From Agathobaculum butyriciproducens (GTDB taxonomy: Bacteria; Bacillota; Clostridia; Oscillospirales; Butyricicoccaceae): a DNA stretch of 45,348 nucleotides. The notes beneath the pieces are model-generated. The model did not search any database and had not been told where the DNA came from. It saw only the letters and a program-made list of their open reading frames with translations. Below, one piece after another: positions 204 to 31,924 of the stretch (positions are counted from its first letter, which is position 1; the number at the start of each line of letters is the position of its first letter). The stretch is from contig QEKJ01000021.1 in assembly GCA_003096535.1 (NCBI GenBank), positions 1-45,348 on the forward strand. Direction: 5' to 3'. The position numbers and the translations under genes are program-made.

Positions 204-398
204 TTGTATTAAAAGAACCGAAGTTCATTTAATCGACTTTAGAGTCTGACGTGTCACTTTGTTTTAACTGGAGTTGTGACTTCCAGCGATTTACCAAGAG
301 TAAAAAACTCTCGAAATTTCAGGTTCGCACTACAACCTTCGTTCTTTTGAACAAAAGTTTAAGCACATCGTTGTTTAATTTACAAGGTACAATCTGCT

Positions 399-29388: not shown

Positions 29389-30102
29389 ATGAAGCAATAT
29401 CAATCCAAACACACCGCGGCGCTCTCTACCCGCGGATTCTACACCATTCTTTCGCTGTGTGCGCTCATCATCGCCGCATCCGCATGGGTGATCTGGGGCA
29501 ATGCACACCGGCAGAACGCGGTCGAGCCGGACACCGGCATGCCTATCATCGCACCGGCCGACTCGACCGCCGAAGCACCGACCGAACCGGCCACCGTTCC
29601 GCAGCAGGAGCAGGAACCCGAGTCAGTGATCGAGGAACAGCCGGTCGCGGCGGCAGAGCCGGAACCGGCGGTGACGGTCAGCGCACCCGTGTATGTGCGG
29701 CCGGTGTCCGGAGCCGTGCTGACTCCATTTTCGGGTGACACGCTGCTGTTCCAGCCGACCATGGGTGACTGGCGTGTTCATGCCGGCACAGACTTCTCTG
29801 CCGAAGCCGGCGAAACCGTGCTCGCACTGACCGACGGCACTGTACAGCAGATTGCCGAGGACGGTCTGTACGGCACCTGCGTGACACTGACGCACAATAA
29901 CGGCCTGACCTCGTCGTACTGCGGCATGGACGATGTACGCGTGCAGGAAGGGCAGGTTGTCTCCGCCGGTGAGGCGCTCGGCGTGTGCGCGGACAGCATT
30001 CCCGCAGAATCCGCACTCGGCACCCATGTGCATGTGCAGGTGACGCAGAATGACGCGCCGATTTATGTACTCACGCTGCTCGATGAAGATGAGCCGGAGT
30101 AA
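29389..30102 (+). CDS. Membrane-anchored M23 (LytM) peptidase, SpoIIQ-like
   Basis: The 237-aa protein has one N-terminal transmembrane helix (about 18-36), an acidic Pro/Glu-rich linker (about 45-95) and a LytM domain. Zinc ligands are complete: HAGTDF (His and Asp) and THVHVQV (second His of HxH). It could therefore cut peptidoglycan peptides, unlike Bacillus SpoIIQ, which has lost a ligand; clostridial SpoIIQ keeps them. GGAGG precedes ATG 29389. A CATACTGT box with TATATT upstream (29337-29368) faintly resembles a sporulation sigma-E/F promoter. No spoIID is adjacent, so the sporulation role is inferred. Confidence 0.85.
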   Translation: MKQYQSKHTAALSTRGFYTILSLCALIIAASAWVIWGNAHRQNAVEPDTGMPIIAPADSTAEAPTEPATVPQQEQEPESVIEEQPVAAAEPEPAVTVSAPVYVRPVSGAVLTPFSGDTLLFQPTMGDWRVHAGTDFSAEAGETVLALTDGTVQQIAEDGLYGTCVTLTHNNGLTSSYCGMDDVRVQEGQVVSAGEALGVCADSIPAESALGTHVHVQVTQNDAPIYVLTLLDEDEPE

Positions 30103-30144
30103 ATTGACACAGACTGTGCGTCCTCTGCTCCTTCACAAATATTT

Positions 30145-30312
30145 AAGGCAATACCGCATAATTGAACAAGAGCGATTTGCGAGCAAATTTTGCGTGCTGA
30201 CAAGGCGCGGTTTTGCGGTAATACTTGATGTATTACCGTGAAATCGCAACAAAGTCAGGACATAAAATTTCCGCAAAGCGCCGCAGCTTTAATTGTGCGG
30301 TGTTGCCTTAAG
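30145..30312 (+). repeat. MITE-like repeat, copy B
   Basis: This is the fullest simple copy, about 168 bp. Ends TTAAGGCAATACCGCATAAT and ATTGTGCGGTGTTGCCTTAA are inverted repeats starting and ending in TTAA. An internal 9-bp hairpin CGGTAATAC / GTATTACCG lies at about 30215-30240. It contains no ORF. It follows the M23 gene by 42 nt. Confidence 0.8.
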
Positions 30313-30403
30313 AAATCTTTCATCATTTTGTGCAGGAATCGGCGAAAAAATTGCGGTACAATAATACCGTAAAAAGAAAACTTTCCCGCAGGAGGAACAG
30401 GCT

Positions 30404-30505
30404 GTGAAACAGAATAATTTGACGAAAAACAGGCTTTGGGCATGGCTGCACCGCCTGATGGGGTTGTGCTTTGGGCCGATTGAACAAAGCAAGAATCGCA
30501 TTTAG
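30404..30505 (+). CDS. Possible 33-aa microprotein
   Basis: GTG at 30404 follows a consensus AGGAGGA at 7-nt spacing and opens a 33-codon frame ending TAG. The peptide starts MKQNNLTKNRLWAWLHRLMG, basic and amphipathic with Trp/Leu/His, then has a CFGPIEQSKNRI tail. The good ribosome site in an otherwise non-coding region is the only support; no clear promoter was found. The frame ends exactly where the giant inverted repeat begins. Confidence 0.4.
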   Translation: MKQNNLTKNRLWAWLHRLMGLCFGPIEQSKNRI

Positions 30506-30507
30506 CC

Positions 30508-31128
30508 GCTTGCGAAGCGAGGGAAATTGCGCTGACGCCGCGCGGGCGCACAAGAGGGTGGACAACCTACGGTTTTCCACCCTCTTGTGAATCTCCCCTT
30601 TTCCCTTAGATAGCTTGGCGCAGATTACCCACATGTGACCGCTTCGAAATAAGGGAACGGCAGAGGTTTTTTACTACCGTGTCTTTCTCAACATATTCGC
30701 AGTGTCAGACAGCGTACTACTACACATACGGGCTACTCTGCGCAGGTGCGGCATGACAGTGCCGCACAATTCTTTAGCGCGTTATAATAGACAGGGCCTA
30801 CGAAGATAAATGGTACCAAACGCCTAATCCGTAGGTGCTGTCTATAATCTCCGACTAACGAATTGCGCGACACTGTTATGTCGCGCCTGCTTAGACTTTC
30901 CGTTATGTGTAGCAGCACGCTGTCTGTGAACTGCGAATATTTCACGAAACAAACGTAACGGTAACCCGACTGCCGTTCCCCTTTTCGAAGCGGTCACCGC
31001 TCTCCGATTTGCATCAGACTATCTAATAAGGGAAAGGCAGGAGTTCAAAGAGGAAGGAAAACCGCAGGTTGTCCTTCCTTTTTGCCCCCGCGGCGGGCGC
31101 CGCGAATCCCCGCGCTCCGCAGAGCGCA
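30508..31128 (+). repeat. Giant nested inverted repeat / candidate large structured RNA
   Basis: A rod of about 620 nt with no ORF, AT-richer than its surroundings. Helices from outside in: CTCC.CCTTTTCCCTTAGATAG region (30593-30613) with 31019-31043; a perfect 15-bp GTGACCGCTTCGAAA (30635-30649) with 30983-30997; a perfect 11-bp GGGAACGGCAG (30653-30663) with 30970-30980; a perfect 10-bp ATATTCGCAG (30693-30702) with 30931-30940; a perfect 10-bp CAGACAGCGT (30706-30715) with 30917-30926; CTACACAT (30720-30727) with 30905-30912. Mirrored side hairpins sit at 30746-30767 and 30865-30886. An inner stem TAGACAG / CTGTCTA and CCTACG / CGTAGG closes a 27-nt loop (30803-30829) containing GGTACC. 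An outer hairpin (30551-30587) mirrors the terminator hairpin at 31049-31084. Not a family I recognise. Confidence 0.75.
31049..31084 (+). terminator. Terminator at the 3' end of the giant inverted repeat
   Basis: AGGAAGGA / TCCTTCCT with loop AAACCGCAGGTTG is followed by TTTTG on the plus strand. It fixes the likely transcription direction of the structured element. Its loop is nearly the reverse complement of the loop of the hairpin at 30551-30587. Confidence 0.65.
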
Positions 31129-31221
31129 ACTCCCCCCGCTGGGTCAGTGCAGCGAAAAAAGGCTGCCGCTCGGAAAGGCACAGCACCAACGTGCCTCGTG
31201 TGCCCCAGATAGTCAGTGCAG

Positions 31222-31258
31222 GAAAAATAAAAGGACGTACCATGAAAGTACGTCCTTT
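31222..31258 (-). terminator. Terminator of the degenerate response regulator gene
   Basis: Stem AAAGGACGTAC / GTACGTCCTTT (loop 31241-31247) is followed on the minus strand by TTATTTTT. Confidence 0.88.
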
Positions 31259-31261
31259 CCC

Positions 31262-31924
31262 TTATTCTGCTTCCTGCAGATAATAGCCGATGCCTCGCTC
31301 GGAGATCAGCTCGGCCTTCGATCCGACCGCACGCAGCTTGCGGCGCACAAGTGTCAGATAAACCTCGATGTTATTGTAGGTCGCGTCCCTGCCTGCTCCC
31401 CAGACCTTCTGGTGCAGCATTTCACGCGGCAGCACCTGTCCCGGTTCCCGCAGGAACATCTCTACAAGCTGCAGCTCCTTGCCGGACAGACGGACTTCGC
31501 CGTCATTGCTCGACAGCACACAGCGGCCGCGGTCAAGCGTCAGGTCGCCGGCGGTCAGGATTTCACTCTGCATCATTCTCGGCCGACGTGCCAGTGCATT
31601 GACATGCGCCAGAATCTCATCGCTCTGGCACGGACGCATGAGTACATTGTCCGCACCCGCATTCAGAATACGGATACGCGCCCGCGCGGTCGTGTGACCT
31701 GCCATGACGAGCAACGGTGTCATATCACCGCTTTCTCGCAGAGAGCGCACCGCATCGACGGTCTTCTCATCCAGCTTAGTGGCATTGTACACGATTACAT
31801 CATATATATTCTCCGAAATATCAAGCGTGTCGCTCTCCGGCTGCTGATCATACAGAATATGTTCATGCTTGAAGGTGGCGAACAGGCGCTCGTCCTGCTC
31901 TGCATTGATTAGCAAAATACGCAT
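31262..31924 (-). CDS. Atypical response regulator with degenerate receiver and winged-helix domain
   Basis: The 220-aa protein has an OmpR-like layout: receiver (1-115) and a trans_reg_C DNA-binding domain (about 130-220; RLSGKELQLVEMFL, HQKVWGAGRDATYNN, RGIGYYLQ). The receiver has lost key residues: the acidic pair region reads NAEQDE, the phospho-acceptor position is Asn47 (VIVYNATK), the Thr position is Ala and the invariant Lys is Arg97 (MRPC). It probably works without phosphorylation. No kinase gene is next to it. ATG at 31924 follows AGGAGGAGA; an in-frame start 30 nt upstream has no site. Confidence 0.88.
   Translation of the reverse strand: MRILLINAEQDERLFATFKHEHILYDQQPESDTLDISENIYDVIVYNATKLDEKTVDAVRSLRESGDMTPLLVMAGHTTARARIRILNAGADNVLMRPCQSDEILAHVNALARRPRMMQSEILTAGDLTLDRGRCVLSSNDGEVRLSGKELQLVEMFLREPGQVLPREMLHQKVWGAGRDATYNNIEVYLTLVRRKLRAVGSKAELISERGIGYYLQEAE

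Follow-up and report, generated by a model that had tools for sequence, protein, structure and literature searches.

The window analyzed here, a 45,348-nt stretch of DNA from Agathobaculum butyriciproducens, carries at positions 30508–31128 a segment that folds back on itself along its entire length. It is located between two converging genes, a peptidase M23 gene on the plus strand and a regulator-like gene on the minus strand, the product of the latter having a transcriptional-regulator C-terminal domain and a weak match to the receiver domain. A sequence-only reading had offered two identities for this locus, a large structured RNA or a novel hairpin element, and the question is which of them applies and to what the element belongs. 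Our answer is that the segment probably belongs to a family of hairpin-ended repeats (similar to MITEs, PATEs and REPINs) that occur throughout the genus as dispersed, non-coding elements without a transposase, the form here being an uncommonly large foldback. The observations can be explained without any RNA function.

The fold itself is confirmed. The region 30480–31150 forms a single rod with the minimum free energy of –351.1 kcal/mol, compared to the mean of –209.05 kcal/mol (sd 8.55) for 20 dinucleotide shuffles (z = –16.6), and self-BLAST yields an inverted match of 70.5% over 638 columns at 30507–31126. Repeat finding identified inner arms of 97 nt, complementary at 76%, outer arms of 53 nt, complementary at 74%, and a perfect 15-bp helix formed by GTGACCGCTTCGAAA at 30635–30649 (plus strand) and its right copy at 30983–30997 (minus strand). 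The long rod with helices and mirrored side hairpins, as described from the letters, is therefore real. Its left arm, with a type I end hairpin, spans 30508–30812 (arm HMM match 30501–30840, plus strand), and the right, inverted arm, with a type II end hairpin, 30827–31128 (arm HMM match 30795–31168, minus strand), the inner limits of both being approximate.

Each arm carries smaller hairpins. The side palindrome, further called the P hairpin, is found at 30549–30589 in the left arm (type I, CACAAGAGGG...CCCTCTTGTG, by repeat finding) and at 31046–31084 in the right arm (type II, AAAAAGGAAGG...CCTTCCTCTTT on the minus strand). The h1 side hairpins, GTGCGGC/GCCGCAC at 30746–30767 and GCGCGAC/GTCGCGC at 30865–30886 (both plus strand), differ from each other by compensated pairs. 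Further out lie the outermost mini-hairpin of the left arm at 30507–30519 (CGCTTGCGAAGCG, plus strand), with similar ones seen by eye at several other simple ends, and an outer mini-hairpin of the right arm at 31112–31127 (GCGCTCCGCAGAGCGC, plus strand). On the right, at 31133–31178 (minus strand), lies a flanking module common to some other copies (matches to query 654–699), which by eye resembles a degenerate form of the 64-bp hairpin unit described below.

In line with the sequence-only reading, no ORF of at least 80 aa (the lower limit of the ORF list) is wholly inside the rod, and the rod is AT-richer than the adjacent genes, its GC being 0.527, compared to 0.627 and 0.557 for the two genes and to 0.563 for the entire window. 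Consensus scanning of 30100–31300 produced six terminator-like sites (1.7 expected), one of them within the rod at 30746–30767 on the plus strand, and a sole sigma-70-like promoter (1.0 expected by chance) at 30197–30225, outside the rod; none was listed within the rod. A plus-strand terminator with a T-run, also claimed earlier, can be seen by eye as the right P hairpin followed by T5, but this site is absent from the consensus scan list. Two more features of the window are a separate 169-bp MITE-like inverted repeat at 30143–30311, immediately to the left of the rod, with ends TTAAGGCAATACCGCA that are 88% complementary over 24 nt and have a further exact match at L031:2410–2425, and a 16S rRNA gene on the minus strand, truncated by the left end of the contig (1–203).

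With Rfam 15, only SSU rRNA reaches the gathering score over the window and no family, OLE, GOLLD and ROOL included, does so in the rod, while a permissive scan of 30400–31300 gives one sub-threshold SR1 match, outside the rod. The earlier statement that the rod fits neither these three nor other known RNAs is thus upheld at both thresholds. A copy from A. massiliense compared with Rfam yields 13 matches up to E = 1, all below the gathering scores and mostly to models of eukaryotic microRNAs.

The rod is one of many. When the genome that contains the window (2.81 Mb, 57 contigs, 99.7% complete) was searched at the DNA level, at least 98 matches were obtained for the best 40 of 88 candidates, merging into at least 40 places, the window included; matches are found on both strands since the query itself is nearly palindromic. 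Patterns of the end hairpins add eleven more sites, known by these hairpins alone. By a crude codon-usage gene call the 40 places are intergenic, although five extend 12–57 bp into a called gene, and they lie between tandem (26), divergent (9) or convergent (5) genes; all neighboring gene pairs at the same loci, the 40 included, are distributed as 169, 26 and 25, respectively. The identity of long matches to the window copy is about 69–80%, hence this copy has no recent sister among the copies found. Eight of the 40 places have a solo arm, one of them (L037) retaining a small remnant of the second arm.

In this genome, the interior of the repeat consists of the two inverted arms, and next to many copies there is a 64-bp hairpin unit comprising a terminator-like stem and a T-run. 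Of 41 such units found in the fetched loci, 40 are read towards the arm, and the distance to the arm is below 200 bp for all; the unit is missing from many ends, among them the left end in the window. The flanking units result in two foldbacks exceeding 1 kb (L012), and the region L012:8040–9345 contains 11 terminator-like sites, compared to 2.4 expected, those of the array pointing inward from both sides. Folding of copies together with 350-base flanks gave no clear copy boundaries.

Outside this genome, matches were found in 22 of 24 other genomes of Agathobaculum (DNA search, at most nine best candidates scored per genome) and in none of 35 genomes of other genera in the same search, where distant relatives could be missed. 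Among the matches listed, those in relatives are confined to the element ends (query 21–134 or 546–660), so that the search in related genomes recovered the ends but not the interior. Scanning a collection of species genomes with the end motif yielded 28 stretches, of which 16 belong to Agathobaculum and 12 come from various unrelated genomes; the latter were taken as chance, and none of them is among the best 70 of 74 shell-HMM rows. Phage and plasmid records gave no match in a distant blastn search, and an end-motif search of viral contigs gave three exact matches. The repeat has so far been seen in a single genus, Agathobaculum, whose members are gut bacteria.

The interior is species-specific across the genus. 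In A. massiliense and in the relative G004 about 230–365 bp with little self-inversion separate the end shells, and the interiors of eight G004 copies fold into many hairpins; in two sister genomes, G010 and G024, genes of XRE regulators are present between the arms at several places. A 105-aa XRE-type HTH gene (L112:2189–2506, L046:698–1015) has nine matches in G010 and seven in G024, several of them between inverted arms. DnaA-box-like palindromes, TTATCCACA or close to it, were observed by eye inside elements of relatives (L044, L048, L253).

What is conserved genus-wide is the shell, in which G+C-rich mini-hairpins are followed by the P hairpin and a short linker (AATCACCCC or GAACTCC, then TTTCCC); the outermost end modules vary between copies, though the hairpin ends are inverted. 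For the P stem (helix 2), standard pairs make up 90.5% of cells across 51 shell sequences, with 13 of 16 pairs changing on both sides, and the outer mini-hairpin (helix 1) is paired in only 55.7% of cells. The covariation score of the two helices is 0.386, compared to 0.189 in partner shuffles, which ignore kinship, and 0.129–0.180 for slid helices; the number of further pair types, 28, does not exceed that in shuffles (29.3). Genus-wide, the P stem has nine one-sided, 144 two-sided and 77 unpaired cells. In the window's own genome, Watson–Crick pairs occupy 0.859 of P-stem cells, compared to 0.551 with shuffled partners (72 of 75 arm matches), and 0.929 of h1 cells, compared to 0.792 (64 of 75), kinship being ignored in both comparisons. 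Hence, the small P and h1 hairpins are maintained by compensatory change. As templated repair of quasi-palindromes can also keep hairpins matched, compensation alone is no proof of selection.

The end hairpins of the window's own genome fall into type I (non-A) and type II (A), which are combined in 23 of 29 rods; five of the remaining rods have two ends of one type, and one rod has two of the other. All three aligned A. massiliense elements are of the I/II kind, and in all eight aligned copies of G004 the two end hairpins are consistently different. Among 15 distinct inverted pairs of relatives, a crude classifier assigned four as mixed, three as I/I and eight as II/II, all eight II/II rows coming from G010 or G024 and two of these rows being one place. 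The two-type rule is thus not genus-wide.

The long rod behaves differently from its small hairpins. The consensus of 31 copies is a near-perfect palindrome (250 of 258 core pairs are Watson–Crick), whereas in single copies about 17% of paired sites differ, with 2003 one-sided and 289 two-sided cells. The two-sided changes compare with 219 expected if independent, and 142 of the 289 are Watson–Crick; one-sided changes comprise 493 G-U and 457 A-C; RNAalifold reports two Watson–Crick types in 34 of 208 pairs, copy orientations being partly mixed in all these counts. One-sided changes with nearly equal G-U and A-C numbers indicate strand-neutral decay rather than RNA covariation. The earlier suggestion that mirrored hairpins of differing sequence hint at selection for folding, with covariation among homologs as a check, therefore holds in part: the end and small hairpins covary and are kept by compensation, but the long rod pairing is not.

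As the orientation of a near-palindrome is ambiguous and mixes the pair tables, further tests were based on single arms. The alignment comprises 67 arms, and GTGACCGCTTCGAAA is its best-conserved 15-column stretch; not included are the L017 arms, a single arm from L018 and from L022, and the second L033 arm. In 31 copies, left arms differ from each other by 25.0%, right arms by 25.2%, left from right by 26.5%, and arms of the same copy by 29.0%. The difference between arms of the same rod is 0.332, compared to 0.276 for randomly paired arms, with none of 5000 permutations as extreme (29 rods, columns 30–290); the permutation was run on columns 30–290, 120–290 and 160–290. The column window 280–320 is trivially different, as the two arms share one stretch of DNA at the center (approximately the final 30 columns of the arm).

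Counted over biallelic columns as far as 290, heteromorphic column-rod cells number 1476 of 2588, compared to 1138 expected. The P block shows the excess clearly, as do parts of the middle and inner blocks, and it is weak or absent at columns 108–160 and 190–235. In the phase tests, made on 29 rods from the 40 places with block columns chosen after the heteromorphy pattern had been seen, linkage within blocks is near 1.0 for the outer block, 19:0 for the middle block and 17:4 for the inner block with the loop, and phases between blocks are random (8:11, 9:12, 13:13, 11:10, 9:11, 8:8, 9:13, 9:10). Linkage is lost in columns 105–167 and 219–254, and both intervals include 15-column stretches that rank among the best conserved; the one between the outer and middle phase blocks (105–167) contains GTGACCGCTTCGAAA (in the window, its left copy), and a further best-conserved stretch, 199–215, lies within the middle block. 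The three nested blocks, which tend to be unlike in the two arms, give the impression that interior segments were inverted or shuffled. The phase pattern fits nested interior inversions of one unequal-armed ancestor, and also fits module exchange under selection against matching arms.

Comparison of genomes provides a view of turnover. Two A. massiliense copies, L085 and L063, are 94% alike over 572 columns and have unlike flanks, which demonstrates spread. Three copies from this species (L085, L247, L249) directly follow terminator-like hairpins, as judged by eye, and no target duplication was seen by eye in the flanks of three A. massiliense copies, whose boundaries are uncertain. Six sites are common to G010 and G024 by alignment of both flanks, others looking paired by score only, and such sharing implies that insertion is slow there. 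At one orthologous site (L177), with flanks 98–99% alike, G024 is without about 220 bp present in G010, that is, most of one arm, and about 65 bp of the outer part of the reduced arm remain. Most simply, rods turn into solo arms by deletion. No clean empty site was observed at the sites compared: the flanks of L176 were not found in G024, and those of L177 show the mostly missing arm instead. At a second shared site (L174:2200–5515 and L175:1890–3384 in the two sister genomes) the right flank and the arms are common, and each genome has its own left flank and its own enclosed genes, as if the arms were exchange points. A repeat of about 180 bp at L177:3552–3735 in G010, absent from the orthologous G024 site, is found in a dozen or so other places of G024 with identity up to 97%, and is perhaps a recently active small repeat.

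We favor a mobile repeat, given the intergenic copies, the conserved inverted hairpin ends, the 94% pair in A. massiliense and the one-sided decay of the rods. The unit would spread as a whole, its hairpin ends being recognized by an enzyme supplied in trans, which may act on single-stranded or hairpin DNA; a search for PF01797 (Y1, RAYT-type transposase) gave no matches in the window's own genome, the same search being positive in five of 14 control genomes. The arm missing in G024 would be a deletion, the family may be old and decaying in the species of the window, and recombination between arms may have inverted interior segments relative to the ends. As a counterpoint, copies diverged by about 25% are still mostly full length, and this could reflect retention for function.

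A more specific and rather speculative scheme derives the phase pattern from copying via a hairpin intermediate in which nested segments are flipped, similar to the rolling-hairpin “flip/flop” known from parvovirus replication. The outer, middle and inner blocks of an unequal-armed ancestral palindrome would have been inverted independently, so that the two variants of a block are both retained in most copies but the phase is random, with switch points in the intervals containing the best-conserved repeats. We know of no non-autonomous repeat with such a mode of replication, and, if true, this would be a bacterial mobile palindrome replicating in a way new for non-autonomous repeats.

Slightly less credible still, and in our view unlikely, is that the repeat family encodes large structured RNAs in multiple copies, with transcription of every copy or arm and a role at the RNA level. 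It agrees with the strong compensatory change in the P and h1 hairpins, the many hairpins in the G004 interiors and the strand bias of one-sided changes in the P stem (A-C 72, G-T 5 in the outer-to-center reading, that is, G-U on the opposite strand). However, a few sequence types account for this bias, the h1 counts are G-T 7 and A-C 3, the rod pairing has no strand bias, and the rarity of one-sided relative to two-sided and unpaired cells in the P stem is more like a DNA palindrome. Species-dependent interiors without an Rfam match, and the absence of a listed promoter-like site inside the element, argue in the same direction. A single large RNA is not supported, given the number of places, the decay of the rod and the unlike arms; of the two identities proposed at the outset, the hairpin element is the one that stands.

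Equally doubtful is a BIME-like functional island, where inverted stacks of terminator-like hairpins would stop transcription from both sides or shape the nucleoid and be kept by selection. The inward-pointing array of L012, the nearly uniform orientation of the 64-bp units and the mostly full length of old copies are in its favor, but nine of the 40 places are flanked by divergent genes, a context that does not require a terminator, no more than five are flanked by convergent ones, and the 64-bp unit is missing at many ends. Finally, a known IS end present twice in inverted orientation, as the inverted arms and the XRE gene enclosed by such arms in G010 and G024 might suggest, is very improbable for 620 bp with no transposase gene and no PF01797 in the genome, arms differing by about 25–29%, and an inverted arrangement that recurs at most of the 40 places, eight being solo arms.

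In bacterial DNA, long palindromes are generally regarded as unstable, and the genome studied here has dozens of foldback repeats of at least 0.6 kb despite this presumed instability. The arms, unlike beyond chance, and the scrambled-looking block phases form a natural record of bacteria tolerating, inverting and pruning long inverted repeats. Moreover, genus-wide hairpin-ended repeats could be mistaken for large RNAs by RNA-discovery pipelines.

Among the papers listed for Agathobaculum, Butyricicoccus and Faecalibacterium, one listing being dominated by gut-microbiome studies, we found no description of such a repeat. Foldback (FB) transposons, known mainly from eukaryotes, likewise have long inverted arms with no coding capacity. 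Bacterial MITEs (Correia/NEMIS, RUP, ERIC), characterized in passages of PMC2229807 as shorter than 200 bp and mostly A+T-rich, with TA termini and target duplications, are likewise non-autonomous, intergenic and bounded by inverted repeats, and fold into stem-loops, whereas the Agathobaculum repeat is about 420–1100 bp long and has G+C-rich ends. REPs and REP dimers, the partners of RAYT transposases, also have two inverted palindromic units, some being heterodimers with different stems, and occur in clusters and as singletons that can be dimer remnants; most of their spacers are 20–100 bp, according to passages of PMC3733652, compared to about 230–450 bp here, and the RAYT domain gave no match in the genome of the window. 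PATEs, the palindrome-associated transposable elements of Haloquadratum, are described in PMC3119063 as related to IS605-type ends and as devoid of inverted terminal repeats, whereas the Agathobaculum repeat is bounded by related hairpin modules in inverted orientation and has a foldback for an interior. With PATEs, as portrayed there, the Agathobaculum repeat shares a non-coding and dispersed character, near-terminal palindromes (here the P hairpins at the two ends), deletions in the core, heterogeneous outer regions and the fact that no target duplication has been seen.
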